DNA of 64,000 nt from Aromatoleum anaerobium (GTDB taxonomy: Bacteria; Pseudomonadota; Gammaproteobacteria; Burkholderiales; Rhodocyclaceae): assembly GCF_012910705.2 (NCBI RefSeq), contig NZ_WTVG02000033.1, positions 62,001 through 126,000 on the forward strand, written 5' to 3'. Of this stretch, positions 49,574 to 62,090 are shown one piece after another. Both the position numbers and the translations under genes were made by a program. The notes below the pieces were generated by a model, which did no database searches, had not been told where the DNA came from, and saw nothing but the letters and a program-made list of their open reading frames with translations. How positions within the stretch are numbered: position 1 is the first letter of the stretch; every line of letters begins with the position of its first letter.

Positions 49574-49650
49574 CGGGGTGTAGCGCAGTCCGGTAGCGCG
49601 CTTGCTTTGGGAGCAAGATGTCGGGGGTTCGAATCCCTCCACCCCGACCA
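49574..49650 (+). tRNA. tRNA-Pro (TGG)
   Basis: Acceptor CGGGGTG/CACCCCG, anticodon stem CTTGC/GCAAG with loop TTTGGGA (anticodon TGG), T-loop TTCGAAT, encoded CCA. Confidence 0.96.
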
Positions 49651-49677
49651 GCTAACCCCGAAATGCCCGCGGGATTT

Positions 49678-49754
49678 CTGCCCGTAGCTCAATTGGATAG
49701 AGCACCGGCCTTCTAAGCCGGGGGTTACAGGTTCGATCCCTGTCGGGCAGGCCA
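49678..49754 (+). tRNA. tRNA-Arg (TCT)
   Basis: Acceptor CTGCCCG/CGGGCAG, anticodon stem CCGGC/GCCGG with loop CTTCTAA (anticodon TCT), T-arm ACAGG/CCTGT with loop TTCGATC, encoded CCA. Confidence 0.95.
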
Positions 49755-49794
49755 AATGATTTTTTGGTTGCAGAGTTTCTGCAACCTTGAAAGT

Positions 49795-49871
49795 GGCGGC
49801 ATTAGCTCAGTTGGTAGAGCACTGGATTGTGGCTCCAGTTGTCACCGGTTCGATCCCGGTATGTCGCCCCA
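49795..49871 (+). tRNA. tRNA-His (GTG), host site of the integrated element
   Basis: Acceptor GCGGCAT/ATGTCGC with a G at position -1 and C at 73, the identity features of histidine tRNA; anticodon loop TTGTGGC (anticodon GTG); encoded CCA. An integrase gene ends 68 bases downstream in opposite orientation, so the 3' half of this tRNA is the likely attachment site. The matching repeat at the other end of the element is outside the window. Confidence 0.95.
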
Positions 49872-49902
49872 AGTAATTCAATAGCTTACGAGCTATACCT
49901 TG

Positions 49903-49963
49903 GCGCCGGCGGTGTCGCTTCTTACGAAGTTTGTAAGATCAGCGGGCCGCCGGCGCTTTTCTT
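49903..49963 (+). terminator. Terminator-like inverted repeat after tRNA-His, overlapping the int 3' end
   Basis: GCGCCGGCGG at 49903-49912 pairs perfectly with CCGCCGGCGC at 49947-49956, followed by TTTTCTT. The enclosed region contains a further small hairpin (CTTAC 49921-49925 with GTAAG 49933-49937). It is supplied by the integrated element and would close the tRNA transcript before it becomes antisense to the integrase gene. Confidence 0.65.
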
Positions 49964-51003
49964 ATGCGCCTTCTGTCATAGACCTTGCTCACGACCGCCT
50001 CGGTGCGATGGCCAGTCAAATCGCTCGCTTTGCGACCGGCTTCGGTCGTGTCTGTGACGGTCTTCGCGCGGAGGTCATGGAAGGTAAATCGTTCGTTGCC
50101 GGCTTCTTCCCACGCGTTCATCATCCGCTGCCACATCGACTTGAAGCCGGTTGCGGTGTAGGGCTGGCCGTCGCCGCTGAAGATCAGGTAGGTGCTCGTG
50201 ATCTTCGACGGAAGGGCAAGGCACTCGTCGACCGCGGCCTGCAGTTCGGTGGTCCATTCGACCAAGGTGCGGGCGCCGCGCTTGCGCTTGCCGAATTCGA
50301 TCCCGTCGTCCTTGATCTGCGTGCGGCTGATTTTCAGCACCTGACCGAGTGCCTTCCCCGTAAGGTATGCAATGTGGGCGGCGAGGGCGAGGCGGCGGCC
50401 GGCGTCGCTGGTCCGCTTTGCTGGGCTGTCTTCGTCGAGGTGTCCGTTCGCGCGGCAGAAGGTGAGGAAGGCGTCGAACTCGGCGTCGCTCACGAGGCGG
50501 TCGCGCGCGTTCTCTTCGTTGCGCTCGACGCCTGTGCAGGGGTTCAGGTCGAGCGCGCCGGCATTGACCAGGCGCGAGAACATGCGGGAAAGCAGCGCGA
50601 TCTCGCGATTGGCCCGAACTGGCGCCTCAGCGCCGCGATAAAGGTGCAAGTAGTCCCAGATGTGCTTCGGGCGGACGGCCTCGGGTGCCATATTGCCGAA
50701 TGCCTTCTTCAGCGCGACGAGCTCTAGCTCGTTGCTGTCGATTGTCTCAGGCGAGAGCTTCCGGCGCTCCATGAGGCGCTTACGCTCCTTCATCAGCTCG
50801 TCGAGGTGGTCGCCAATGGTGCCGGCCGGACGTGCCTCTCCGTCCAGTTCGAGAAGCTTGCGCCTCGCGTCTTTCAGGTTGTGGCCGAGGTTGATCCGCC
50901 GGTTGTCGGGTGTGACCGTGAAGTAGGTCGTCACTCGTTTACCACGGTACTCGTAGAGACGGCTCATCCCAAGGTGTAGGCCAGTTTTCCTGCGTCCAAT
51001 CAT
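49939..51003 (-). CDS. int: Tyrosine-type site-specific integrase
   Basis: 354-residue phage/ICE integrase adjacent to tRNA-His. A basic N-terminal arm-type region and a SAM-like core-binding domain (about 60-165) precede the catalytic domain. The second-box residues are present: TFHDLRAKTV (H and R), LTGHRTEAVV (H) and the nucleophile tyrosine in KVYDRRR. The first box reads LTGKALGQVLKI, where most family members have Arg at the position occupied here by Ala (TG-x-R), so activity is uncertain. The start overlaps the DUF4224 stop by ATGA, so the two are co-translated. Confidence 0.9.
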   Translation of the reverse strand: MIGRRKTGLHLGMSRLYEYRGKRVTTYFTVTPDNRRINLGHNLKDARRKLLELDGEARPAGTIGDHLDELMKERKRLMERRKLSPETIDSNELELVALKKAFGNMAPEAVRPKHIWDYLHLYRGAEAPVRANREIALLSRMFSRLVNAGALDLNPCTGVERNEENARDRLVSDAEFDAFLTFCRANGHLDEDSPAKRTSDAGRRLALAAHIAYLTGKALGQVLKISRTQIKDDGIEFGKRKRGARTLVEWTTELQAAVDECLALPSKITSTYLIFSGDGQPYTATGFKSMWQRMMNAWEEAGNERFTFHDLRAKTVTDTTEAGRKASDLTGHRTEAVVSKVYDRRRIRKAPAAR

Positions 51004-51362
51004 GCTGTCGTCCAGGCGGTAAAATCTGGCTCGCTATCACCGGGGTGAGCAGATGCCATTCCCAATTTCTGTTCTGCGTATGAACGCAGTACCTTGGGGT
51101 TGCCCATACGAGACAGAGTGTAGATCCAGCCCTTCTGGTCAAGCCAGCTGCACTGCAGGGACTTGACCGGGGTATCGGTCAAGTCTGCAAGTTCGTCTGG
51201 GCTAACGGTGATTGCGATGGCCGCCACCCCTGATGATGAAAGAGAATTCGGGGTGGAAGGAGGCGGGAAGAGGTCGCGCAATTTTTTGGCGGCTCGACCC
51301 CGCAAGCTAACGTGACCCGCCGAACTGACTCGTACCCCGGATTGCTTCCATAGAGAGCGCAC
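51000..51362 (-). CDS. DUF4224 domain protein upstream of the integrase
   Basis: 120 residues. The C-terminal part (VSPDELADLTDTPVKSLQCSWL-DQKGWIYTLSRMGNPKVLRSYAEQKLG) matches DUF4224, a small domain found just upstream of phage and ICE integrases and thought to act with them. The N-terminal 50 residues are low complexity and the true start may be later. The stop overlaps the int ATG. Its promoter region abuts an IS110-type element only about 95 bases upstream, so native control of int may be altered. Confidence 0.7.
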   Translation of the reverse strand: MRSLWKQSGVRVSSAGHVSLRGRAAKKLRDLFPPPSTPNSLSSSGVAAIAITVSPDELADLTDTPVKSLQCSWLDQKGWIYTLSRMGNPKVLRSYAEQKLGMASAHPGDSEPDFTAWTTA

Positions 51363-51457: not shown

Positions 51458-52678
51458 ATGGAACTGGTAGCGCTACACAAACGAGTCATCGGACTGGATG
51501 TGCATCAGGCGCAAATTACGGCCTGCGCGATCCTCGAAGAGGCCGACGGCACGACGCGTATCGAACAGCGGCAATTCGGTGCGTTCAAACGCGATCGGCG
51601 CGCACTGGCCGACTGGGCGGCATCGCTTGCTCCCGATCAGGTGGTGATGGAGAGCACGGGCATCTACTGGAAGAGCCCGTATGCCGCACTGGAAGCGGTG
51701 GGCATCCGTGGGCAAGTGGTCAATGCCCGGCACGTCAAGAATGTTCCCGGACGCAAGACCGATGTCGGCGATGCGCAATGGTTGGCGACGCTCTCGCGTG
51801 CCGGATTGCTGCGCGGTTCGTTCGTGCCGCCGGCACGGCTGCGTGAGTTGCGTCTGATTTCGCGGCAGCGGCAGAAACTGGTGGGTCTGCTGGCCTCCGA
51901 GAAGAACCGCCTGCACAAGGTGCTGACCGACGGCGGCATCCGCCTGGGCGTGGTGGTGAGCGATCTGCATGGTCAGTCGGCACGCGCCATGGTCAAGGCC
52001 ATCATCGAAGGGCACTCGCCGAACGAGGTGCTGAAGTTCGCCAGTCGGCGACTCAAGGCCAGTCGCGAGGAAATCTTCGATGCCTTGCAGGGGGAACTGA
52101 CCGACAGCCATCGCTTCGTGCTCGATGAACTGATGCACCATGTCGAGGAGATCGAGGCGCGCATTGCGCGCTTCGATGCGCGACTTCTGGATGGACTGCA
52201 GGACGAACGAAACGCGCTCGCCTTGCTGCAAACCCTGCCCGGCGTCGATCTGATCGGCGCAGCCATGCTGCTGGTGGAAATTGGCACCGATATGGAGGCA
52301 TTCGGCTGCGCGGATCGGCTGACGTCCTGGGTCGGCATCTGCCCGGGCAACAATGAGTCGGCGGGCAAGCGCAAATCCGGACGCGTTCGCAAGGGCAACC
52401 TCTATGTCCGACGCCTGCTCTGCGAGTTCGCTCATGCCGCCAGCCGCACCAAATCGGCCTTGCAGTCGAAGTTCCAGTCGCTCATCGTTCGCCGCGGCCA
52501 CAAACGCGCCATCGTCGCCTTGGCACACAAGATTCTGCGCACCATCTACTTCATGCTCAAACGTGGCGAACACTACCGGGATTCAGCCACCGACTATGAG
52601 GCGCTTTCCGTTCAACGCAACGCTCCACGCTGGATCAAGGCGCTGACTCGCTTCGGCTTCATTCGCGCAGCCGCCTGA
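51458..52678 (+). mobile_element. IS110-family insertion sequence (transposase span; ends not defined)
   Basis: Contains one intact transposase gene. The element ends could not be fixed: no terminal inverted repeat is evident, as expected for IS110-type elements. A similar string (CACCCGCCC...TTCCAC) occurs just upstream (about 51414-51430) and just downstream (about 52681-52695), which may mark the ends or target duplication. The non-coding flanks (51363-51457 and 52679-52800) are where a guide (bridge) RNA would be expected. Confidence 0.75.
51458..52678 (+). CDS. IS110-family transposase
   Basis: 406 residues with the DEDD RuvC-like N-terminal domain (VIGLDVHQAQITACAI, VVMESTGIYWKSP, KTDVGDAQWLATL) and the C-terminal Tnp20 domain holding the conserved serine region (WVGICPGNNESAGKRKSGRV). 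It appears full length and uninterrupted. IS110 transposases are RNA-guided recombinases in recently studied members; which guide RNA is used here cannot be told. Confidence 0.93.
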   Translation: MELVALHKRVIGLDVHQAQITACAILEEADGTTRIEQRQFGAFKRDRRALADWAASLAPDQVVMESTGIYWKSPYAALEAVGIRGQVVNARHVKNVPGRKTDVGDAQWLATLSRAGLLRGSFVPPARLRELRLISRQRQKLVGLLASEKNRLHKVLTDGGIRLGVVVSDLHGQSARAMVKAIIEGHSPNEVLKFASRRLKASREEIFDALQGELTDSHRFVLDELMHHVEEIEARIARFDARLLDGLQDERNALALLQTLPGVDLIGAAMLLVEIGTDMEAFGCADRLTSWVGICPGNNESAGKRKSGRVRKGNLYVRRLLCEFAHAASRTKSALQSKFQSLIVRRGHKRAIVALAHKILRTIYFMLKRGEHYRDSATDYEALSVQRNAPRWIKALTRFGFIRAAA

Positions 52679-52992: not shown

Positions 52993-53110
52993 CGTGGTGC
53001 TCGTCGTGGTCGTCGGTGTCGCTGAACATGTGGAGGCTCGGAGCGGGGCAGCCAATCCGGCCATTCCCTTGCCAGCCGTTGTGCATCAGGGCATCGACAT
53101 AGACCGTCAT
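52993..53110 (-). pseudogene. DUF4031 gene remnant
   Basis: The first 38 codons from the ATG at 53110 read MTVYVDALMHNGWQGNGRIGC...SLHMFSDTDD, the start of a DUF4031 protein (small metal-binding family in phages and plasmids). After about 52993 the frame loses the family sequence and meets the ABC-transporter fragment, so the 3' part is lost. Its ATG overlaps the stop of the upstream HD-type gene (ATGA), showing it was once the second gene of that operon. Confidence 0.6.
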
Positions 53111-53688
53111 CTTGGGACTCTCCGTCCAGCTGACAGGCTGCGTAGCCCTTCGATGTCCACTTCCGGCCGCAGCTCATGGTAGCGATCGAGGAAGAGGTGC
53201 TTCGCCACGATGGGCGCGAGAGCCTGGATCGTCCGGGGCAGGGGCGAGGCCTGCGTCGTACCGGTCCACTCGTCGTTGTGGGGTGGGTCGAGATCACGCC
53301 GCTCGGTGGCGCGAAGTACGAGATCCGCGTACTTGACCGACGGAGGGAGGTAAGGCGGGGCACCGAGGTCGGCCAGAATATCCGCGGTGGCCTGCCCCTC
53401 GGCGTCGAGACACACGGGGAGCAGTTCCTTGAGCGCATCGCCGGCGTGAAGGAGGAGCGCCGCAAGGGCGTCGTCCGGCGGCACGATGGTGCTCGCCAGA
53501 TAGTCGTGCTGGGCGATCGAGTAGAAGGTGTGTGCTCGGCCGGCGAAGCAGCACGTGCTTGCCAGGACATGGGCGACGTCTTCGATGCTCACTTGGTCCG
53601 GTGCAGGGTTATCGCCAATGACCTGACCGGCGCCGGTCAGGTCCCCGAGTCGGCGCATGGCGCGTGATGCTGGGAATTCCTGCTTCAT
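53107..53688 (-). CDS. HD-superfamily hydrolase-like protein (YfbR-like), probably degenerate
   Basis: 193 residues. HTFYSIAQHDYLASTIVPPDDALAALLLHAGDAL resembles the YfbR-type 5'-nucleotidase/HD-domain family found on phages and mobile elements, which usually has SVAQHS...AALLHDAxEA. Here the HD dyad is HA, so a metal ligand is missing. A good ribosome site (AGGAGAG) precedes the ATG at 53688. Located between element fragments and the KfrA region on the minus strand. Function is uncertain. Confidence 0.6.
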   Translation of the reverse strand: MKQEFPASRAMRRLGDLTGAGQVIGDNPAPDQVSIEDVAHVLASTCCFAGRAHTFYSIAQHDYLASTIVPPDDALAALLLHAGDALKELLPVCLDAEGQATADILADLGAPPYLPPSVKYADLVLRATERRDLDPPHNDEWTGTTQASPLPRTIQALAPIVAKHLFLDRYHELRPEVDIEGLRSLSAGRRVPR

Positions 53689-54358: not shown

Positions 54359-54401
54359 ACCCCGGACCCGAAGGCCGTTCCGGTTGCAGGGGCTGACCGG
54401 A
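54359..54401 (-). promoter_or_regulatory. Structured leader RNA motif, copy A
   Basis: Minus strand. Stem 1 TCCGG/CCGGA (54397-54401 with 54379-54383) closes the 13-nt loop TCAGCCCCTGCAA. Stem 2 GGCC/GGTC (54373-54376 with 54365-54368, one G-T pair) has loop TTCG. The tract GGGGT (54359-54363) can pair with GCCCC of loop 1. Confidence 0.75.
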
Positions 54402-54412
54402 CGTTGCCTATA

Positions 54413-54441
54413 TTCATAGGCGCGATGCTTCGACACGTCAA
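54413..54441 (-). promoter_or_regulatory. Promoter for leader RNA copy A
   Basis: Minus strand: TTGACG (54436-54441), 17-base spacer, TATGAA (54413-54418). Transcription would begin just before the leader RNA motif. Confidence 0.65.
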
Positions 54442-54560
54442 GGCAGCGGCCATGTCAGGCGGCGACGGTGTCATTGATTCCGTGTCTTGGACATCGGTCC
54501 GACGCGCCGACCGATCGTTGGCTCCTTGGGCGGCGGGTGTAGTGCCGGTTATTTGAACCT

Positions 54561-55442
54561 TTACGACTCGCCCGTCATGGCGCCCTGCGCGGTAAAGCCC
54601 TTGATGACGTCCAGATGGCCGGCGTTCTGAGCGCGCAGCGCTTCCAGCTCACCAGTCGCCTGAGCGAGGCGAGCGGCGAGGTCGCGGGACTCCTTCCGTG
54701 TCTCCGACAGATCTGCCTCGAGGTTCGCGTTCCGTTGCTTTTGGTCCTGCAACTGGCTGTCGAGCTTCGCCACTTCGTGCGTGTGGCGCGCCTGGCTATC
54801 CGCCAGACGCTCGGCGAGGCCTGCGGCCTTCGCCTCGGCGATCGCGGCCAGACGTTCGGCATTGGTGCGGGCGTCGCGCTCGGCGTCTACCGCACTTCGT
54901 AGCCGCTCGTTGTCCTTTTCAAGGATGGGGATAGTGTCGAGTCGGACATGCGCCTTGGCCAACTCGGTGCGGGTGGCTTCGGCCGCCTGACGTTCACGGG
55001 CCGCTTCGTCCCGGGCGGTGGAGAGGTCGGCCTCCATTTGCTCGATCTTTCCGGCGAGCGCCGCCTTCTCTTCCTGCGACATCTGCAGGGTGCTTTCCAG
55101 CGTCTCGATGTGGCCGCTCTGGCGCACGTTCTCGGCGGCGAGTTCGTTGGCGGCCGCTTGCACGTCAGACAGTTTGGCGTCGAGGTCGGCCCGAGCCGTT
55201 GCCCGCTCCTGCGTCACGAATTCGAGGATCGCCCGTTGCAGCGCAGGGGGGAGGGCTGAACCCGCTTCGATGGATGGCGGCTGGTTGCCTTCCCATCGTT
55301 GGAACAGCTTATGGATGGTGCCCAGACTGCCGCTGCCGTGACGCTCGCGGATCTGGCGTGGCGTGGGCTTCCCGCCGGCGGCTTTGATCCCATCGGCGAT
55401 GGCCGCCACTTGTTCGTACGTGATGCTGGCTTCCCGAGGCAT
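54561..55442 (-). CDS. kfrA: KfrA-like DNA-binding coiled-coil protein
   Basis: 293 residues. The N-terminal 90 residues (ITYEQVAAIADGIKAAGGKPTPRQIRERHGSGSLGTIHKLFQRWE) are the KfrA_N DNA-binding domain; the rest is a long alpha-helical coiled coil rich in Ala, Glu and Arg (about 95-280). KfrA proteins of broad-host-range plasmids bind their own promoter and form filaments that aid plasmid maintenance. Tandem operator-like repeats lie on its promoter, fitting autoregulation. The assignment to the family is firm; the maintenance role here is inferred. Confidence 0.88.
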   Translation of the reverse strand: MPREASITYEQVAAIADGIKAAGGKPTPRQIRERHGSGSLGTIHKLFQRWEGNQPPSIEAGSALPPALQRAILEFVTQERATARADLDAKLSDVQAAANELAAENVRQSGHIETLESTLQMSQEEKAALAGKIEQMEADLSTARDEAARERQAAEATRTELAKAHVRLDTIPILEKDNERLRSAVDAERDARTNAERLAAIAEAKAAGLAERLADSQARHTHEVAKLDSQLQDQKQRNANLEADLSETRKESRDLAARLAQATGELEALRAQNAGHLDVIKGFTAQGAMTGES

Positions 55443-55455
55443 GTCTCGTCTCCAG

Positions 55456-55499
55456 TACGATACGTTACGTACGATAGGTTACGGTACGGTACCAATCAA
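55456..55499 (-). promoter_or_regulatory. kfrA promoter with tandem operator repeats
   Basis: On the minus strand TTGATT (55494-55499), 17-base spacer and TATCGT (55471-55476) form a promoter. Two adjacent 14-base repeats, TACGATACGTTACG (55456-55469) and TACGATAGGTTACG (55470-55483) on the plus strand, differ at one base and cover the -10 and the downstream region; a GTACGGTACC palindrome-like element (about 55484-55493) fills the spacer. The position suits an autorepressor site. Confidence 0.75.
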
Positions 55500-55529
55500 G
55501 TGTCCATGACCCGATCGAGGTGAGCCCGC

Positions 55530-55892
55530 TCAGCGGTGGGGTGGGGCCTCGTGGCCCGGTTTCGCAGACGTCTCATGTCGCTGGCGCCCCCGTGTAGGTC
55601 GTCGGGTCGCCAGGTCAAGAGGCGTTTGAGCTACCGGTTCGCCGTGGATCGACGGTCTTGGCATCGGCTTCAAGCTGTCGCACCCGACCCAGTCCTCCCA
55701 GACGGTCAGGACTTCGCCGTCGATCTCGTCGGGTTCGAGGGCGTCGGGGGCTACCAGCGAGCAGTCGATCCATCGTATTCGTAGCAGTGTTCCGGTGCGC
55801 TCGAGGATCTCGACCCATCCGTGCTCGCGGTGGATCGCCATCTCGCCCGGTCGCAGACGGGCCGGATGGGTGTTGATGTGCACGACGTTCAT
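55530..55892 (-). CDS. Hypothetical protein of the integrated element
   Basis: 120 residues from MNVVHINTHPARLRPGEMAIHREHGWVEILERTGTLLRIRWIDCSLVAPDALEPDEIDGEVLTVWEDW. The N-terminal 80 residues look like a small beta-rich domain (it resembles CarD/KOW-type or SH3-like folds only superficially); the tail is basic. Start chosen at 55892 because GGAGG lies at the right distance. It is upstream of kfrA on the same strand. No known family recognised. Confidence 0.6.
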   Translation of the reverse strand: MNVVHINTHPARLRPGEMAIHREHGWVEILERTGTLLRIRWIDCSLVAPDALEPDEIDGEVLTVWEDWVGCDSLKPMPRPSIHGEPVAQTPLDLATRRPTRGRQRHETSAKPGHEAPPHR

Positions 55893-56268
55893 ATCCCTAA
55901 CCTCCATGTCCAGGGGAATGTCATGTGATTGCAGCGTCGATGGCGCCAAGTCGTGTGCAGGCCCTCGAGCGGAGGTGCCCCGTCGGGGAGAACAACTGGC
56001 GCGGCAGGCCTTCCAGACGTTGGGGGCGCCACAGCATGGACCCGCTGTGGGCACTAGCTCCCTGTCTGGGGCATCAAACGCGCGTGGGCGGCATCAAGTC
56101 CAGCCCACGGGCGAGGTCGTGCAGCCGAGCAGAGGCGCGGGCTGGTCGCGATCGTAGGCGAAGGGTGGCTGTCGGGCGGATGAGATCCGTCCCCTCGCGG
56201 GAATGTCGCTGATCAAACGAAGAAATGCAAGGCGGTTTGGTCTGGCTGAAGGTGTGCTCGTTGCCCCG
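55893..56268. other. Intergenic region before the DUF3577 promoter
   Basis: About 375 bases. Open frames are short and lack ribosome sites. Apart from small GC-rich inverted repeats I see no supported feature until the promoter at 56269. Confidence 0.5.
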
Positions 56269-56296
56269 TTGACGGCGCGGGCACTTGGCGTAGAAT
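56269..56296 (+). promoter_or_regulatory. Promoter of the DUF3577 gene
   Basis: TTGACG at 56269-56274, 16-base spacer, TAGAAT at 56291-56296. Transcription start near 56303 gives a 160-base leader holding the structured RNA motif copy B. Confidence 0.75.
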
Positions 56297-56333
56297 CATC
56301 GCGAGCATTCGGCCATGCGGCCGGTGTACTGCG

Positions 56334-56376
56334 TCCGGTCAGCCCCTGTAACCGGAACGACCGTCAGGTCCGGGGT
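56334..56376 (+). promoter_or_regulatory. Structured leader RNA motif, copy B (DUF3577 gene)
   Basis: Stem 1 TCCGG/CCGGA (56334-56338 with 56352-56356), loop TCAGCCCCTGTAA; stem 2 GACC/GGTC (56359-56362 with 56367-56370), loop GTCA; GGGGT (56372-56376) can pair with GCCCC in loop 1 (56342-56346). The best copy to define the motif because promoter and gene are both clear. Confidence 0.8.
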
Positions 56377-56396
56377 ATCGTTTGTGTCACCCACCC

Positions 56397-56461
56397 GATC
56401 GGGAAGATTCACTTCCCGATCATGGGACGTGTGGTCTCCCGATTTTTTTCGTCTGGAGACC
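56397..56461 (+). promoter_or_regulatory. Leader hairpins in front of the DUF3577 start codon
   Basis: First, a perfect 10-bp hairpin GATCGGGAAG/CTTCCCGATC (56397-56406 with 56412-56421). Second, GGTCTCC (56433-56439) pairs with GGAGACC (56455-56461), which contains the Shine-Dalgarno of the gene four bases before its ATG. A GGGA...TCCC stem followed by GATTTTTTT (56424-56447) is a competing terminator-like fold. Confidence 0.65.
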
Positions 56462-56464
56462 GTC

Positions 56465-56971
56465 ATGTCTGAATCCAAACAAGTTGCTTCCGAGACCGCT
56501 CCCGAGAAGGAGCATTTCGACCTGCATACCAAGGGATGCGGCTATTTGGGCCGGGTCCGGTGGGTGAAACCACGCGGCGGCGGTCGTCGAGCCGAGCCCT
56601 TTCTTGCATGCGCGATCAACGCTGTTCACGGGTCCGTCACGGAACCGGCGTACACGTACTTTGACCTCAGAGTGGTCGGTGCCGAGTGTGCCGAGCTCGT
56701 TGAACGCTTCAAGCAGGATGTCCAGAACGACCGCAAGGTCTTTGTCTCATTCCGCGTGGGTGACATCTACCCACATCTCTACTATGCCGACGTCAAGGAT
56801 TCCGAAACCGGTGCGCCCGGCAAGGAACCGCGCGTCATCATCAAGGGCCGGCTGCTACTGCTGACGCACGTCAAGGTGGACGGCCAAACGGCCTACGAAC
56901 GCCCGAAGACCACGGATGTTCAGCAAGCGGCCGAAAGCGCTCCCCTGGAGCGCACCGGCACCAGCGGGTGA
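56465..56971 (+). CDS. DUF3577 family protein of integrative conjugative elements
   Basis: 168 residues. YFDLHT-type N-terminus (HFDLHTKGCGYLGRVRWVKPRGGGRRAEPFLACAINAVHG), then TYFDLRVVGAECAELVERF and RVIIKGRLLLL, the full DUF3577 (STY4534-type) pattern. Family members occur in accessory regions of ICEs and pathogenicity islands, probably as single-strand-binding-like or replication-associated proteins; the exact role is not known. Start at 56465 follows GGAGAC. Confidence 0.88.
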   Translation: MSESKQVASETAPEKEHFDLHTKGCGYLGRVRWVKPRGGGRRAEPFLACAINAVHGSVTEPAYTYFDLRVVGAECAELVERFKQDVQNDRKVFVSFRVGDIYPHLYYADVKDSETGAPGKEPRVIIKGRLLLLTHVKVDGQTAYERPKTTDVQQAAESAPLERTGTSG

Positions 56972-57055
56972 TCACTAGATCAACCATTCCAATCTCGGAG
57001 CCTTTCGCGGGTTTCCAGCCGTTTTGCACGTTTCGGCAAAAACGTGCGTGGTGCG
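56972..57055. other. Spacer with an inverted repeat between DUF3577 and leader copy C
   Basis: An 8-bp perfect inverted repeat GCACGTTT/AAACGTGC (57026-57033 with 57039-57046) lies here. It has no T-run on the coding strand, so it is not a clear terminator. No promoter for copy C was seen. Confidence 0.45.
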
Positions 57056-57098
57056 CCCAGTCAGCCCCTGTAACTGGGACGGCCGTCAGGCCTGGGGT
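57056..57098 (+). promoter_or_regulatory. Structured leader RNA motif, copy C (DUF3275 gene)
   Basis: Stem 1 CCCAG/CTGGG (57056-57060 with 57074-57078), loop TCAGCCCCTGTAA; stem 2 GGCC/GGCC (57081-57084 with 57089-57092), loop GTCA; GGGGT (57094-57098) can pair with GCCCC of loop 1. Both stems differ from copy B by paired changes. Confidence 0.8.
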
Positions 57099-57285
57099 CC
57101 GTCGGTAGGGCTTTGCCTGTCCGCTTCGATCCCGTACCGGTCCGGAAAACCGGTGCCTCTTTCAAAGCCCGGGCCATCAACCATGTTGGTGGCCCTCCTG
57201 TATCGCACGCGCCGAGGGTTCGAACCATTCGGTGTCCGATTTTCAACCACCCATCGGGGGCGCTCGTCCCCTTCGGTGGGCGGGC

Positions 57286-57305
57286 CTCCGATACCGCATT
57301 CGGAG
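57286..57305 (+). promoter_or_regulatory. SD-sequestering hairpin before the DUF3275 gene
   Basis: CTCCG (57286-57290) pairs with CGGAG (57301-57305), which is the Shine-Dalgarno of the GTG at 57315. Loop of ten bases. Confidence 0.55.
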
Positions 57306-57314
57306 ATCGAGATC

Positions 57315-57962
57315 GTGAGCATCACTGTCGAAGGCACGCTGAACATCAAGCGCGTCAAGGGGGCCAATGGCCCGTTCTGTGTCGGCGATCTGCTGACCGA
57401 TATCGGCGAGTTTCGGGTCAAGGACCCGATCCTCGATCAGTTCGAGGAAGGGAGCTACACGGGGCGCTATATCATCCAGCGCATCTTTCCCTGGTCCTAC
57501 GCCAGCAACGGTCGGCTCGTGTTGGAGATCCGCGCCCGACTCGCCGATCTGCACGTTCATAGCGGCACGGAAAGGAGTCTCCCCGAGGCGCCGATGGAAC
57601 CCGATCCCGCAGACGAGGCCTTAGCGCAGACTGCACGTCCTGGTGCTGGGAATGGCGACTTGGAGGGAAGCGGTGCGCCCGACCGGGAACAGGAGGGCGG
57701 GGCGTCACCCGCGCTGTCCACCACGGGACCGGACGAATCGGCCGATCACGCGCTCTTGGGCGACGAGCTCTATGGGCTGGTCGCGGCGCGCCAACCGGTG
57801 AAGCTCGATCCGACGATCGATGACCGCCGGCGCTTCCGGGAGCAGCGCAATCGGCTGAAGTCCGGACTCCAATACGGCTTTGTGCCGGAAGAGCAGGTCT
57901 GGTATCCGGAGGAATCCGATCGGTATCGGGCTTACCTGGCCGCGAAGGCGGACGCATCGTAG
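57315..57962 (+). CDS. DUF3275 family protein of integrative conjugative elements
   Basis: 215 residues with a GTG start: MSITVEGTLNIKRVKGANGPFCVGDLLTDIGEFRVKDPILDQFEEG is the DUF3275 N-terminal domain, followed by a variable acidic linker (about 90-150) and the conserved C-terminal element VKLDPTIDDRRRFREQRNRLKS-GLQYGF. Family members are found in ICE accessory clusters beside DUF3577; function unknown. The GTG was chosen because the conserved sequence begins there and GGAGA precedes it; the frame continues upstream into the leader RNA. Confidence 0.85.
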   Translation: MSITVEGTLNIKRVKGANGPFCVGDLLTDIGEFRVKDPILDQFEEGSYTGRYIIQRIFPWSYASNGRLVLEIRARLADLHVHSGTERSLPEAPMEPDPADEALAQTARPGAGNGDLEGSGAPDREQEGGASPALSTTGPDESADHALLGDELYGLVAARQPVKLDPTIDDRRRFREQRNRLKSGLQYGFVPEEQVWYPEESDRYRAYLAAKADAS

Positions 57963-58361
57963 AACAATCCCCGCGGCCGACGCCGGCCGCCAGCCCGCGC
58001 GCGGGCTTTCCGAATCGGGGTCAGTGCGTCAGGGTACGCGCGTGATTCGGAAAGCCTGCGAGGGCTCCATCGACAACTGGGCAGCAACACGCCCGATGTG
58101 TTGCGGCATTTGCGTCGGCGGTTTTCCCGCGCGCCCTTTCATCGGCGCCCACGCCTTCCACCGGGGCGCCTCGCATCCGAGCCACGGGGTCTCAGGGCAA
58201 TGCGCCTGAGGCCCGCGGGTGTGACGAAGGTATCGTTCAAAGCCCATCCAAGCGGAACCAGCGGGTTCCCATCGTCGGCCTGCAGCAGGCAGACCGACGA
58301 TGGAAGTCCGTTTGCGGTCGTCCGGCCATCGGCCGGTGGCGCGCGTTGCCTGATGCAACAG
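57963..58361. other. Intergenic region before leader copy D
   Basis: About 400 bases without a supported gene. It contains a long hairpin, CCATCGTCGG/CCGACGATGG (58269-58278 with 58294-58303). No promoter hexamers stood out. Confidence 0.5.
57992..58008 (+). terminator. Weak terminator after the DUF3275 gene
   Basis: AGCCCGC/GCGGGCT with a very short loop, followed by only TT. It may be an mRNA end hairpin rather than a true terminator. Confidence 0.35.
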
Positions 58362-58404
58362 CCTGTCAGTCCCTGCAACAGGACCGAGCATGTCGCTCCG
58401 GGAC
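58362..58404 (+). promoter_or_regulatory. Structured leader RNA motif, copy D (methyltransferase gene)
   Basis: Stem 1 CCTG/CAGG (58362-58365 with 58379-58382), loop TCAGTCCCTGCAA; stem 2 GAGC/GCTC (58386-58389 with 58395-58398); GGGAC (58400-58404) can pair with GTCCC of loop 1 (58369-58373). The loop base change C to T is matched by G to A in the downstream partner, keeping the pseudoknot pairing. Confidence 0.78.
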
Positions 58405-58485
58405 ATCATCCACAACCTGCGGGTCGCGATCGGCCCGTCGAGGGTCATTGCGTCCCCCCTTACACGTTCCCTCCGAGGAGGTTCT

Positions 58486-59583
58486 ATGGCCCTGATATTC
58501 CCGCGCCTGGCGCGCAATTTCGTGAAGAACGGCTACTACCCGACCGACCAGGCGACGCTCGAACGGATCGTCGCCGCCCTCGATGTGGCGGGCAATGAGC
58601 TACGGATCCTGGATCCGTGCTGCGGAGAAGGCGCTGCGCTCCACCAGGTCAGGGAAGCGCTGACTGGATGCGGTGCCGCCGTTCAGGCATTCGGCGTCGA
58701 GTTCGATGCCGAGCGCGCCTGGCATGCGAAATCCGTCCTGGACCTCGCGATTCACGCCGACATTCAGGATGCCGTCGTATCGCCCAGGTCCATGGGCCTC
58801 TTGTTCCTGAATCCGCCCTATGGTGACGCGGTGGCCGACCGGGCGCAGACCGGCGACAAAGGGCCGGACCGACTCGAGAAGATCTTCTTCCGGCGAACCT
58901 TTCAAACCCTTGCGTTCGGCGGTGTCCTCGTTCTCATCGTGCCCTACTACGTGATTGACGCGGAGTTCGCAGGCCTTCTTGCGCGCAACTTCGATCGCAT
59001 TCGCTTCCATATGGCCCCGGAGCAGCAGTTCAAGCAGTGCGTGGTGTTCGGCGTTCGGCGCCGTTCGGACTGGCCTGAATCCCGCACTGTGTCGGCACTC
59101 ATCGCTGCCGGCAAGGGCGAGGCACTCGATCAGGTGTTGCCCGAGAGCTCGAAGACCGAGCCGTATGCCGTTCCGGAGATTGCGGGCGGGGAGGGACGCT
59201 TCCACGCGGTCCGCATCGACGCCGCACAGCTCGCTGCCGAGGTGGTGCGACTGCACCAGCACAGTCTCTGGCCGCAGTTCCGGACCCACTTCGGGGGCAC
59301 GAATGGCATGCACCGCGCGCCGTTGACCGAAATGGGGCGTTGGCATCTGGCGCTGGCGCTGGCGGCAGGTCAGGCGCACGGAGTCGTGACCTCAGGTAGC
59401 GGTCGCACCCTGTTGATCAAGGGCGACACGTACAAGGACAAGGTCCGGTCGGTCGAGCTCTCGGAAAGCCCGGATGGGAGCGTCAGTGAAACCGTCATTC
59501 TCACCGATCGGTTCGTACCGGTGATACGGGGGATCGATTTCACGCCTGGGCCCGGGCTCGGGTCCATCGTCACGATCCAATAG
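58486..59583 (+). CDS. DUF6094-type SAM-dependent DNA methyltransferase
   Basis: 365 residues from MALIFPRLARNFVKNGYYPTD, preceded by GAGGAGG. Motif I is ILDPCCGEGAAL (about 45) and motif IV is LFLNPPYGD (about 105), the N-P-P-Y signature of N6-adenine or N4-cytosine amino-methyltransferases. A C-terminal part of about 200 residues has no recognised domain. Proteins of this type sit in ICE accessory regions next to a large helicase, as here. Whether it protects the element from restriction, marks its DNA or acts in defence is unknown. The upstream ATG at 58390 lies inside leader copy D. Confidence 0.82.
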   Translation: MALIFPRLARNFVKNGYYPTDQATLERIVAALDVAGNELRILDPCCGEGAALHQVREALTGCGAAVQAFGVEFDAERAWHAKSVLDLAIHADIQDAVVSPRSMGLLFLNPPYGDAVADRAQTGDKGPDRLEKIFFRRTFQTLAFGGVLVLIVPYYVIDAEFAGLLARNFDRIRFHMAPEQQFKQCVVFGVRRRSDWPESRTVSALIAAGKGEALDQVLPESSKTEPYAVPEIAGGEGRFHAVRIDAAQLAAEVVRLHQHSLWPQFRTHFGGTNGMHRAPLTEMGRWHLALALAAGQAHGVVTSGSGRTLLIKGDTYKDKVRSVELSESPDGSVSETVILTDRFVPVIRGIDFTPGPGLGSIVTIQ

Positions 59584-59758
59584 GGCAGGGCAAACGCGCT
59601 GCCCGTTGGTGTTGCGGAGCACCGCTCCGCCTCGCCTTGCTGGCCCTCGGCGCCGGCGCTTTGACCACTACCACTGCAACCCGAAGGGGCTCCCTCTGCG
59701 GGGGCGAGCTCACCGTTGTGTTGTCTTCCAGCCATCTATCATTCTTTGGGAGAACGAG

Positions 59759-60382
59759 ATGCAGCAGGAAATCGATATGTGGGTGCTCGTGCGACACCGT
59801 GACGTGTCCGCACTGTCGAGCGCGGGCCGCAACTGCTCGACGACGGATCGCGAGTGGCGGGCGGGCTGCCTCGAGTATCTTCAGACCGCGCTGCTGTGCC
59901 ACCCGGGCACGCTTGCGCGGACGGAGGTCGTCTGGCCGCTGTTGTGCCGGGCGCCCGACGAAGCCGAGACGTTCTGGTCGACCATCCGAGTGCTTCGGGC
60001 CAAGTTCAACCACGCGCTCGCAAGTACCCTGAATCGCTTGTGCGCACTGCTTCCCGAAGCGGGTGCCGACCAGATGGAGATCCAGATCGGGACCGATGGC
60101 GGAATCGATTGGCCGGAGGCCCTGTTTCCGATGGGCGCCGCGCTCCTCACGCACGTTGCGGAGCGACTGCAGGACACGCATGACTTCGACACTTCCGGCG
60201 AGGCCGTCCTCCACGTGCTGACCGACCTGGCGCGCCTTCTGTCCGACCATCTCCCCGATCAGTCGCCGTTCTTCGATGCGATCGCGCGGTCGGTGCGTGT
60301 GCCGAGCGACAAGGTGCTGATGTCGGCGCTGGCGCAGGGCGAGTTGCTCTTGCTTCCGGTCCGGCGCATCAGCGACGCGTAG
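59759..60382 (+). CDS. Hypothetical protein of the integrated element
   Basis: 207 residues beginning MQQEIDMWVLVRHRDVSALSSAG, mostly alpha-helical, without a recognised domain. The start is supported by GGGAGA eight bases upstream. It lies between the methyltransferase and a series of small genes all on the plus strand and separated by 100-180 base leaders. Confidence 0.65.
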   Translation: MQQEIDMWVLVRHRDVSALSSAGRNCSTTDREWRAGCLEYLQTALLCHPGTLARTEVVWPLLCRAPDEAETFWSTIRVLRAKFNHALASTLNRLCALLPEAGADQMEIQIGTDGGIDWPEALFPMGAALLTHVAERLQDTHDFDTSGEAVLHVLTDLARLLSDHLPDQSPFFDAIARSVRVPSDKVLMSALAQGELLLLPVRRISDA

Positions 60383-60490
60383 TTTCTCCTGGGGCGGCCG
60401 TGCTGCCGCGATTCCATTGTCCTCTCTCATCACCCGTCGGGTTGCACGCCCGGTGGGTGCGGCGACCGACGGGACATTCAGGAGCGCATC

Positions 60491-60832
60491 ATGCACACAT
60501 TGCGAAACTTCAACCGTGTGGCGGACGAGTACGAGCTTGCGCAGCGTCAGCCACTTCGCGTCGCCTTGATGACGGCGGGTAACCCGGACCTCGGTCAGGA
60601 CCCCACGCAAACACTTCTCGGCGTCCGGAATCGCCTGGCGCCGGTGGCATCCCTTGGAGACGCGAGCCGTGTTGTCTGCCGCTTCATCGTCGAGCACCAA
60701 GTCGGCGGCGGCAATTGGGTGGGTGGACAAGTCCTTGACGGTTGCGGCCAGCAGGTCGCACGCGTGAGTTACAACGGACGGGTCTGGCTACCTGCTCCCA
60801 GGGCAGTGCCGCAACCAGTTGCCCAGACGTAG
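60491..60832 (+). CDS. Small hypothetical protein of the integrated element
   Basis: 113 residues: MHTLRNFNRVADEYELAQRQ..., with LLGVRNRLAPVASLGDASRVVCRFIVEHQVGGGNWVGGQV in the middle suggesting a compact alpha/beta fold. An AGGAG precedes the ATG. A GC-rich hairpin with imperfect pairing (60431-60459) lies in its leader. No family recognised. Confidence 0.6.
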   Translation: MHTLRNFNRVADEYELAQRQPLRVALMTAGNPDLGQDPTQTLLGVRNRLAPVASLGDASRVVCRFIVEHQVGGGNWVGGQVLDGCGQQVARVSYNGRVWLPAPRAVPQPVAQT

Positions 60833-60864
60833 TTTTCCGGCGACGCCATCGAGTTGACGCCGCG

Positions 60865-60909
60865 CGCTGTCAGCCCCTGAAACAGCGACGGCCCCTCGGG
60901 GCCCGGGGC
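60865..60909 (+). promoter_or_regulatory. Structured leader RNA motif, copy E
   Basis: Stem 1 CGCTG/CAGCG (60865-60869 with 60883-60887), loop TCAGCCCCTGAAA; stem 2 GGCCC/GGGCC region (60890-60903); GGGGC (60905-60909) pairs perfectly with GCCCC of loop 1 (60873-60877). It begins only 33 bases after the preceding stop, so it is probably inside a polycistronic transcript. Confidence 0.8.
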
Positions 60910-60925: not shown

Positions 60926-60992
60926 CCCCCATCGGGAAGATCCGCTTCCCCGATGGGGGGCGGCATCTCCCCATTTTACGAGGAGCTCTGCC
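60926..60992 (+). promoter_or_regulatory. Leader hairpins before the small gene at 60993
   Basis: A strong hairpin (60926-60939 with 60945-60959, one bulge) shares the core ATCGGGAAG-N5-CTTCCC with the DUF3577 leader. It is followed by GGCA-CTCC (60962-60970) able to pair with GGAG-TGCC (60982-60992), hiding the ribosome site. Confidence 0.6.
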
Positions 60993-61112
60993 ATGGAAAA
61001 CGTCAATTTCACCGACCTCGAAGCCACGCTCTCGGGCGTGGACGCCAGGCCCTTGTCCCGCGTCCGGTTCGCCTCCCTACCCGGATCGCCCTGGGCGATT
61101 GCCATCCGTTGA
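60993..61112 (+). CDS. 39-residue hypothetical protein
   Basis: MENVNFTDLEATLSGVDARP...WAIAIR, ending TGA directly before an ATG. GAGGAG lies eight bases before the start. Its placement after leader copy E and directly before the next gene suggests a real small gene or a leader peptide that couples translation to the gene at 61128. Confidence 0.5.
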   Translation: MENVNFTDLEATLSGVDARPLSRVRFASLPGSPWAIAIR

Positions 61113-61127
61113 ATGGAGGCACCCATC

Positions 61128-62090
61128 ATGTTGTCGATCGAGGGTTTCTCCGATTTGTACGCGGATGCCTGCGTCCGCGGCGAAAATGGCGAACTGTTGC
61201 TGCTCTCCTTGTACGGACGCGACACCTCCGTGCTGCAGTTCATGTCCGCCTTCTCCGTGCGTGGCGATCAGGGCGGCCTGCTCCACGCGGGGGAGGCCAC
61301 CTTCACCCTGGCCGATGAGGGAGTGCGACACACGGTGTTCGTCCCGGAGCCCGAGCGGCTCCAGAAGTTCACCGGCCGTTTCCCCGACCGGAACCTGTTT
61401 GGAAGCCTGACCCACACGTGGCTCTACGACCCGGTTCTGGTGCAACTCGACCGGCCAGGGGGAGCCGCCTGGCTGGTGAGTGATGAGCGCGAGGTGCCGC
61501 GCTCCGAACTGTGGGCCCTGATCCGGGACCTCAGCCCGCTGCCGCTCCTCGATCACTGGCGCGATCCGCTGCTCGACGGTCTGGGCGATCGGCTCTGCAT
61601 GCCGCTGAGCCGCTTCAAGTTCCCGCCGCTCGGCAAGGTCGGCGGCGTTCGTGTCACGCTGGAGGAGCGGTTCCAGGACATCGTTTCGATGGCCGTCAAT
61701 CAGGGTGTGTTGACGCTCGAGGCGGACGACCTGCCCGCTGACGCGGCGGGACGGATCCGGGCGATCGCCGAAGCATTGCCGCCCGTGCGGGCTCAGTCCA
61801 AGCCCTTGTTCGAGCTCGGTCGCGTGGTCATGACAGCAGGGGTCGAGCCGCTCCTCGAGCGCTATCCGGATCTTGTCGACCGCTGTCTCGGCGCCTACCT
61901 ACGAGGCGATTGGGGTGTGAGCTCCGAACCCGAGCAGAACGACGAGGCCGTGCGGTCGGGCGACCGCATATTCGCCGCGTATCCGATCGACCTGGCTCGG
62001 CCGAGCGCGGGCTACGGCGCCAATACGTTGTGGATCATCACCGAAGCGGACCGCAGCGTCACGACCTTGCTGCTACCCGAAGAGTACTGA
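61128..62090 (+). CDS. Hypothetical protein of the integrated element
   Basis: 320 residues from MLSIEGFSDLYADACVRGENGELLLLSLYG. A start at 61113 (MEAPIM), immediately after the preceding stop, is possible, but GGAGG at 61116-61120 favours 61128. The C-terminus (GANTLWIITEADRSVTTLLLPEEY) resembles the end of a group of plasmid and ICE proteins without known function; no catalytic motif is seen. Adjacent to the helicase gene, separated by a 120-base leader. Confidence 0.7.
   Translation: MLSIEGFSDLYADACVRGENGELLLLSLYGRDTSVLQFMSAFSVRGDQGGLLHAGEATFTLADEGVRHTVFVPEPERLQKFTGRFPDRNLFGSLTHTWLYDPVLVQLDRPGGAAWLVSDEREVPRSELWALIRDLSPLPLLDHWRDPLLDGLGDRLCMPLSRFKFPPLGKVGGVRVTLEERFQDIVSMAVNQGVLTLEADDLPADAAGRIRAIAEALPPVRAQSKPLFELGRVVMTAGVEPLLERYPDLVDRCLGAYLRGDWGVSSEPEQNDEAVRSGDRIFAAYPIDLARPSAGYGANTLWIITEADRSVTTLLLPEEY

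Follow-up and report, generated by a model that had tools for sequence, protein, structure and literature searches.

A covarying pseudoknot RNA and a putative Shine-Dalgarno switch in leaders of unrelated genes on a conjugative element of Aromatoleum anaerobium

Why should several unrelated genes of one mobile element be preceded by the same small structured RNA? The question is raised by a 64,000-nucleotide (nt) stretch of Aromatoleum anaerobium DNA (contig NZ_WTVG02000033.1, positions 62,001 to 126,000, contig C40 in our numbering; the whole stretch is called the window here), which contains a DUF3577 gene of the kind carried by integrative and conjugative elements (ICEs). An original prediction, made from the sequence alone, held that five copies of a conserved RNA with an H-type pseudoknot precede several unrelated genes of this element, and proposed building a covariance model from the copies and searching other genomes with it.

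A pseudoknot that covaries across copies and loci

The 13-nt loop of the motif, TCAGYCCCTGNAA, occurs without mismatch exactly five times in the window (54384-54396 on the minus strand and, on the plus strand, from 56339, 57061, 58366 and 60870); six further sites make up the 11 matches found with two mismatches allowed. The source genome has ten exact loops, five on contig C40, within the window, and five on contig C2, and none of a reversed control pattern. All five predicted copies stand at their stated positions in the window, and the sequences of their first and second stems (P1 and P2) read identically on rechecking:

54359 to 54401, minus strand: pseudoknot copy A (P1 TCCGG/CCGGA, pseudoknot strands GCCCC/GGGGT)
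56334 to 56376, plus strand: pseudoknot copy B, in the leader of DUF3577
57056 to 57098, plus strand: pseudoknot copy C, in the leader of DUF3275; 213 nt from the end of the model match to the start codon
58362 to 58404, plus strand: pseudoknot copy D (pseudoknot strands GTCCC/GGGAC), in the leader of a DUF6094 methyltransferase-like gene
60865 to 60909, plus strand: pseudoknot copy E, preceding a 39-aa open reading frame (ORF) and a 320-aa gene

When the ten source-genome copies are aligned, P1 has 5 pairs, P2 has 4 and the crossing helix has 5, and 97.9% of the cells in these three helices pair, compared with 85.5% in shuffles, none of 500 of which scored as high; sliding the structure along the alignment brought pairing down to 20-60%. 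A covariance model built from the ten copies (R1) scores the five window copies at 55.6-72.9 bits, with the next match in the window at 9.8 bits. Searched over 72 sources (870,410 bases), R1 found 104 copies, representing 97 distinct rows, in 47 of them. Two-sided pair changes in this set number 257 cells, against a shuffle mean of 70.3 and 10 to 35 in slid versions; covariation extends to each of the three helices, the crossing one among them. The pseudoknot helix pairs in 98.1% of cells and shows two-sided change at four of its five pairs, as a crossing helix of an H-type RNA pseudoknot should. At its pair 13:79, C-G occurs in 47 and U-A in 44 of the 97 rows; part of the set was retrieved by a pattern that permits, without forcing, coupling at this pair, and C-A, which the pattern permits likewise, occurs in none of the 104 rows. 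The outer pair is G-U in 56 rows and G-C in 36, and strand combinations include GCCCC/GGGGT, GTCCC/GGGAC, GTCCC/GGGAT, GCCCC/GGGGC, GCCTC/GAGGC, GTCCT/AGGAC, GCCCT/AGGGC and GCCCA/TGGGC. Minimum free energy was uninformative, the five window copies folding no better than shuffles (z -0.29 to 0.66).

Each unit is ordered as P1, UCA, pseudoknot strand, UGNRA, P1', A-C, the P2 hairpin (within the third loop) and the pseudoknot partner. Conserved unpaired positions are few (UCA, UGNRA and A-C); GNRA closes the loop in 99 of the 104 copies.

The genes that follow are unrelated to one another. In the window they are:

56465 to 56971, plus strand: DUF3577 / STY4534-like ICE gene (PF12101, E 5e-42; its NF040584 match is below that model's cut-off)
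57315 to 57962, plus strand: DUF3275 gene (PF11679)
58486 to 59583, plus strand: DUF6094 methyltransferase-like gene (PF19587)
60993 to 61112, plus strand: 39-aa ORF led by copy E; in loci L068 and L094 the frame behind this leader continues into the large gene
61128 to 62090, plus strand: 320-aa gene without a Pfam or NCBIfam match; 8 loci, the window among them, have a member of its cluster behind the motif
53107 to 53688, minus strand: 193-aa gene downstream of copy A, of no family, whose cluster lies 411-667 nt behind the motif in 6 loci including the window

Across all loci the downstream protein clusters, named after scanned members, are DUF6094 (18), DUF3577 (16), DUF3275 (13), RadC-like (8), those of the 320-aa (8) and 193-aa (6) genes, a long helicase-like protein (4 members, identity judged by eye) and others. 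The source-genome member of the RadC-like cluster matches PF04002, and source-genome copy L005 leads a RadC gene. Among 101 ORFs, assigned by a simple script that is probably wrong in some distant cases, 52 start 60-110 nt from the motif, 19 at 150-320 nt and 30 farther away, and the copies with a start codon at 60-110 nt precede unrelated protein families. No start codon follows copy A at the typical spacing; its nearest supported ORF (53107-53688, minus strand) has its start 667 nt past the model match. Together, covariation and gene assignment bear out the prediction of a conserved H-type pseudoknot RNA before several unrelated genes of one element.

The second five-copy set (contig C2, 303889-431323; L001-L005 and L128) includes three copies in the neighbourhood of a second DUF3577 gene, and another of the set precedes a RadC gene. 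Copy F on this contig (L001:1493-1541) has no assigned ORF within 800 nt and, by eye, lacks the S1-S4 tail described below; it may be a remnant. In the window, a promoter-like site lies upstream of copy B:

56269 to 56296, plus strand: sigma-70-like promoter TTGACG-16-TAGAAT, with 37 nt from the -10 element to the motif

Just 5' of copy C, at 57026-57047, stands an inverted repeat (GCACGTTT..AAACGTGC) that is also found before the matching contig C2 copy (L003). Since the scan shows no sigma-70-like promoter there, the repeat is possibly a promoter or a protein site.

How widely is the RNA distributed? Across 369 genomes of the class, strong R1 matches were confined to the source genome in a search that scored 16 candidates per genome under strict filters and can miss weak copies. 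A pattern scan of an 84,980-species genome collection returned 45 stretches, 41 of which hold at least one R1 match at E <= 0.05; the other four (L074, L085, L088 and L109) have no R1 match, are probably chance and were set aside. Hosts are mainly Aromatoleum, Azoarcus, Thiobacillus, Parasulfuritortus and metagenome-assembled betaproteobacteria (Rhodocyclaceae, Hydrogenophilales, Gallionellaceae and others). A Comamonas plasmid (L039) has one copy, and a Nitrogeniibacter plasmid (L040) has five divergent copies at E < 0.001 plus one match at E 0.18, with pseudoknot strands that differ between copies (GUCCU, GUCCC, GCCCU, GCCCA and GCCUC). We did not accept as clear members the weak class-wide matches in ten other genomes (L020-L029, E 0.0005-0.01): for nine of them a structural descriptor without the GNRA requirement gives nothing or only a shifted or short fold, and L020 has a loose fold at the expected place. 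By eye, L026 looks like a tRNA.

A four-segment module over the Shine-Dalgarno sequence

What lies between the pseudoknot and the start codon? The original prediction left unnoticed a second module there, a putative Shine-Dalgarno (SD) switch read from the sequence and made of four segments: S1 and S2 are the arms of a hairpin, H2, and S3, which follows, is complementary to the SD side, S4. The pairings S1:S2 and S3:S4 bury the SD sequence, and S1:S3 is an alternative that would free it. The segments in the window are listed here; those of leaders C and E are direct readings, and the swap test is described below.

56397 to 56406, plus strand: leader B S1, the 5' arm of H2, SD-like (GATCGGGAAG)
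56412 to 56421, plus strand: leader B S2, the 3' arm of H2 (CTTCCCGATC)
56431 to 56439, plus strand: leader B S3, the anti-SD arm (GTGGTCTCC), followed by CGA and a run of seven T
56455 to 56463, plus strand: leader B S4, the SD side (GGAGACCGT), with 9 pairs to S3
57253 to 57261, plus strand: leader C S1 (ATCGGGGGC), complementary to S3 at 57283-57292 (GGCCTCCGAT); outside the swap test
57286 to 57305, plus strand: leader C SD-hiding hairpin, CTCCGA-TACCGCAT-TCGGAG
60931 to 60941, plus strand: leader E S1 (ATCGGGAAGAT); the similar leader L094 is in the swap test
60945 to 60954, plus strand: leader E S2 (CTTCCCCGAT)
60963 to 60972, plus strand: leader E S3 (GCATCTCCCC); L094 again in the swap test
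60982 to 60985, plus strand: leader E S4 (GGAG)

The SD-hiding hairpin of leader C is the same in the closely similar L096 leader; for the window row, the arm script picked another pairing.

Of 87 distinct leaders, 49 have an exact CTCC placed 8-32 nt 5' of GGAG, compared with 7 of 79 rows (rows with GGAG, duplicates kept) in an equal-length control stretch further upstream. Of the four flanking positions in the 49 leaders, 2.78 pair within the leader and 1.89 after swapping, with none of 5000 swaps as high. This exact-CTCC test supersedes a first test that was biased because the arm was chosen by its own extension.

When 33 tails were aligned with MAFFT and folded with RNAalifold, S3:S4 was missed and S1 was paired with S3 instead, which led us to a duplex-energy swap test. 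(The alignment excluded duplicates and L043, L045, L050, L056, L058, L061, L133 and L134, in which the start codon was mis-set or the tail short or unclear.) With S1 and S3 placed by position and short anchors, independently of complementarity, the S1:S3 duplex averages -14.0 kcal/mol in 23 DUF3577 leaders of many lineages and -9.9 when swapped (4.1 better), and -14.4 against -10.6 kcal/mol in 40 leaders of the present motif (3.8 better). In both sets, all 300 swaps gave a less favourable mean. Eight rows had been removed from the first set because they were redundant or belonged to the second, and two leaders are common to both sets. The same kind of test supports covariation of S3:S4, and by eye S1 resembles the SD side.

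Which fold is expected by default? In the 63 parsed leaders, predicted pairing exceeds 0.5 for S3:S4 in 59, for S1:S2 in 59 and for S1:S3 in 1, and SD burial is 0.92 in 72 leaders compared with 0.64 in 9 control genes of the window. A U-run stands behind S3 in 17 of 75 tails and is absent from 58. In leader B (56431-56449) it yields a terminator-like hairpin; a minority of leaders may also attenuate transcription.

radC RNA, STAXI RNA and other DUF3577 leaders

Is the RNA already known under another name? At cut-offs, Rfam 15 finds only tRNAs in the window and no family that reaches its cut-off at the motif; up to E=10, the last 11 kb give six unrelated matches, all below cut-off. The original prediction had mentioned an RNA motif named after DUF3577, but none is found among the Rfam 15 matches in the window. 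Nor is the motif STAXI RNA (RF01728) itself, which has no match in the source genome up to E=10 (cut-off 40.5 bits) and none in the window, or radC RNA (RF01754) itself, whose best source-genome match reaches 20.5 bits, below the 40-bit cut-off, with none of the ten listed matches at the motif.

These two families do occupy the same place in related elements. An Rfam scan at cut-offs of 24 DUF3577 loci, including 7 of the 20 larger loci from the class, found a named RNA near DUF3577 in nine. Five have radC RNA (L041, L042, L132, L112 and L142; Pseudomonas veronii, P. aeruginosa pKLC102, Enterobacter ludwigii, a Stutzerimonas stutzeri plasmid and one further genome), with a small gene between the RNA and DUF3577 in P. 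veronii. The other four (L147-L150) have STAXI RNA in the DUF3577 leader of Salmonella pSGI4 and Pantoea, Erwinia billingiae and Citrobacter plasmids, at 79.8-88.5 bits; in Haemophilus influenzae ICEhin1056 a STAXI-like match of 18.3 bits, below the cut-off, overlies the DUF3577 leader. The tails of eight of the nine loci are in the 23-leader swap set, and that of L112 is visible by eye (as L043). In wider searches RF01754 matches in one of the 369 class genomes, RF01728 in none in a search without a positive control, and a short STAXI query gave one poor match in E. coli genomes. Viral contigs had no match to the protein, to the patterns for the motif and for STAXI, or to the primers.

STAXI is described in PMC2864571 as tandem repeats of a pseudoknot close to genes for DNA handling; its authors discuss single-stranded DNA (ssDNA) but favour RNA owing to the UUCG loops. 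The present motif likewise lies near DNA-handling genes of mobile elements (DUF3577, DUF6094 and RadC). Unit 1 of STAXI in four loci and the present motif both fit one topology, in which P1 encloses the 5' pseudoknot strand and UGNRA, and P1' is followed by a hairpin (a short UUCG hairpin in STAXI) and the pseudoknot partner. In all four loci the STAXI unit 1 strand pairs at 5 or 6 of 6 positions (GTAGCC/GGCTAC, TCAGCC/GGCTGA, GCGGTC/GGCTGC, and CTGGCC/GGCTGA with one mismatch) and UGNRA follows it, a count made without a shuffle control; later STAXI units were read by eye only. STAXI RNA also precedes the S1-S4 tail in the four enterobacterial elements. It differs in its tandem units, whereas the present motif occurs as single units (the window copies are spaced at least about 700 nt apart), and Rfam files it as an sRNA gene.

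In Pseudomonas-type elements radC RNA serves as a cis-regulatory leader within the DUF3577 region. The same S1-S4 tail follows it, and its pseudoknot units share the topology; a RadC gene is led by the source-genome copy L005 as well. In 15 radC instances, again without a shuffle control, a stem whose loop strand pairs beyond the next hairpin is present at unit 1 in every instance and at unit 2 in all but one, with many different strands (GGATC/GATCC, TGATCT/AGATCG, GGGTC/GACCC, GGTCT/AGACC, GCTTCC/GGAAGC, GCATTC/GAATGC and GCACTC/GAGTGC). Unlike the present motif, with one unit per leader, radC RNA has two tandem units (both in 14 of the 15), 149 positions, an extra 5' hairpin, other conserved sequence and mostly no GNRA.

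With GNRA required, a pseudoknot descriptor was applied to 36 DUF3577 leaders; 17 of them outscored 95% or more of their 200 dinucleotide shuffles, and twelve outscored all 200. The 17 include 2 source-genome copies and four close mutual relatives (L046-L048 and L063), and the match in L153 is probably chance. The set excluded L064, L066 and L052 (duplicates), L061 (short), L058 (replaced by L128), L143, L039 and L040. The descriptor without GNRA was weak, with several leaders no better than shuffles and a wrong start in L058, and the GNRA version was used instead. DUF3577 leaders of other ICEs without an Rfam name (among them L044, L046-L049, L053, L056, L057, L059, L060, L063 and L134) share this topology, with GNRA or something close to it; their pseudoknot strands read, for instance, GGATCG/CGATCC or ATCTCC/GGAGAT. 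They differ from the present motif in pseudoknot strand and stem sequence, and R1, run on the larger loci of all those listed but L134, gave no match. Shewanella and Vibrio DUF3577 leaders (L146, about 2230-2380; L151, about 2200-2400) share a block, GCACACGGC ... GTGTCGCG; neither radC RNA, STAXI RNA nor the GNRA pseudoknot was found in them, and the block is possibly a further leader RNA class.

The literature searched gave nothing joining candidate structured RNAs with DUF3577; papers naming DUF3577 are, from their titles and the starts of their abstracts, apparently not about an RNA motif, and the listings returned for ICE pseudoknot or SD leaders held nothing on the subject. The present motif was not found in that literature, including passages of PMC2864571, PMC4710047 and PMC12370729. 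The kind of RNA is already known through STAXI and radC RNA; the single-unit form, the slot and topology common to all three, and the proposed S1-S4 switch appear to be new.

Elsewhere in the window, three tRNA genes stand beside a tyrosine-recombinase-like gene on the minus strand, which narrowly misses the Pfam cut-off, and a DUF4224 gene at 49574-51362, probably the end of the integrated element. An IS110-family transposase gene lies within this end region (51458-52678), and a gene for a KfrA_N coiled-coil DNA-binding protein lies between copies A and B (54561-55442).

How the leaders might work

We favour, with a probability of about 0.57, a translational on/off leader that is off by default, in which the pseudoknot would be an element-wide sensor or binding site and S1-S4 the switch. 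Each copy would form the 5' domain of a cis-acting mRNA leader. At rest, S3:S4 together with S1:S2 would hide the SD sequence, leaving DUF3577, DUF3275, DUF6094, the RadC protein and other element genes poorly translated. The pseudoknot would then sense a signal, most likely an element-encoded or host protein binding the unpaired UCA and UGNRA, and the fold would shift to S1:S3, with S1 capturing S3, such that the SD is freed and the element genes come on together. The covariation is seen in the sequences; that the pseudoknot is linked to the switch, and what it senses, we infer. Because S1:S3 wins in only one of the 63 predicted folds, an outside push would be needed to reach it; and because the helices vary within one element while UCA, UGNRA and A-C mostly stay, recognition is likely to involve shape and a few unpaired bases, through a protein or tertiary contacts. 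Control by a single antisense RNA, also raised by the original prediction, is disfavoured, since pseudoknot strands differ among the copies of one element, the Nitrogeniibacter plasmid. A familiar four-segment attenuator is the trp leader, in which 1:2 and 3:4 are likewise mutually exclusive with the middle pairing; its output is a terminator, whereas in the present leaders it would be the buried SD.

Several observations weigh against this reading. Two of 25 and 10 of 50 leaders were unparsable and left out of the swap test, and swaps preserve base composition but not relatedness. The predicted S1:S3 fold prevails in that single leader only, the SD-burial control is small at 9 genes, and leader D is weak (S3:S4 0.52; duplex -7.7). 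No ORF lies close to copy A or copy F, and 30 of the 101 assigned ORFs are more than 320 nt away, some probably mis-assigned. L041 has an S1-S4 tail without a pseudoknot just upstream, so the tail may work alone; pseudoknot and tail are therefore separable, and the tail may answer to ribosomes or another factor. Nineteen of the 36 DUF3577 leaders fail the GNRA descriptor, including leaders from Burkholderia, Vibrio, Shewanella and Klebsiella, three radC leaders and four STAXI leaders, the last probably because their hairpin, of 3 pairs including a G-U, does not reach the script threshold. By eye, only 2 of 15 radC units 1 (where UUCAA is commoner) and 2 of 14 units 2 have GNRA behind the strand, which speaks against placing radC RNA in one family with the motif and slightly lowered our confidence, to the value given above.

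Could the pseudoknot act on transcription instead? The HK022 put RNA is a promoter-proximal antitermination RNA, and a pseudoknot of that kind would modify RNA polymerase to read through terminators in the long element operons, with U-run hairpins as attenuators. Promoter-like sites upstream of the motif in 14 of 102 distinct regions (3 in an unstated number of control stretches), 24-61 nt from -10 to motif, would suit this, as would the terminator-like hairpin of leader B and the U-runs of other tails. We consider it unlikely: most tails lack the U-run, whereas 49 of 87 leaders carry the exact anti-SD arm, the region has no more terminator-like sites than shuffles do (6 against 6.4), and 88 of the 102 upstream regions have no promoter-like site by the scan used. 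Structure without regulation, in which pseudoknot and hairpins shield 5' ends from decay and fix a low, constant translation, would account for a default fold that is stable and, in 59 of the 63 leaders parsed, covers the SD, but S1:S3 covaries, though a static leader has no need of it, and we regard this reading as distinctly unlikely.

A metabolite riboswitch, with a small molecule bound by the pseudoknot driving S1-S4, could draw on the compact pseudoknot, its conserved unpaired bases and the SD-hiding platform; yet those bases are few, and the nameable genes led by the motif belong to the element and to DNA handling, not to a metabolic pathway, which makes a metabolite very improbable. Least credible to us is structured ssDNA in the transferred strand, perhaps acting on entry as a single-strand promoter or a protein site. 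The idea of ssDNA was raised by the STAXI authors, who prefer RNA (PMC2864571). The led genes do handle DNA of conjugative elements, and all copies share one orientation in 24 of 29 loci with at least two copies. However, both orientations occur in the other 5, and copy A is opposite to copies B-E, indicating that the motif follows genes and not one DNA strand. The outer pseudoknot pair is moreover mostly G-U, which the complementary DNA strand could not form, and the SD switch downstream requires RNA.

Whether the translational leader extends beyond the present motif is a more tentative matter. DUF3577-type conjugative elements across Gammaproteobacteria (in the GTDB sense, betaproteobacteria included) may have a single RNA control system in common. 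It would join a pseudoknot sensor, made of one unit or of several in tandem and with a GNRA-ended loop in many lineages, to the four-segment SD switch, and radC RNA, STAXI RNA and the window motif would be lineage variants of it; the scarcity of GNRA in radC RNA also slightly lowered our confidence here, leaving this somewhat short of even odds. In the silencing and later activation of such elements' genes, a shared leader switch would add a post-transcriptional layer over many unlinked operons, and an element so equipped would turn them on by one signal, with no transcription factor at each promoter. radC RNA and STAXI RNA, two orphan classes, would gain a common topology, a common place in the leader region of one ICE gene, and a testable output in the buried SD.

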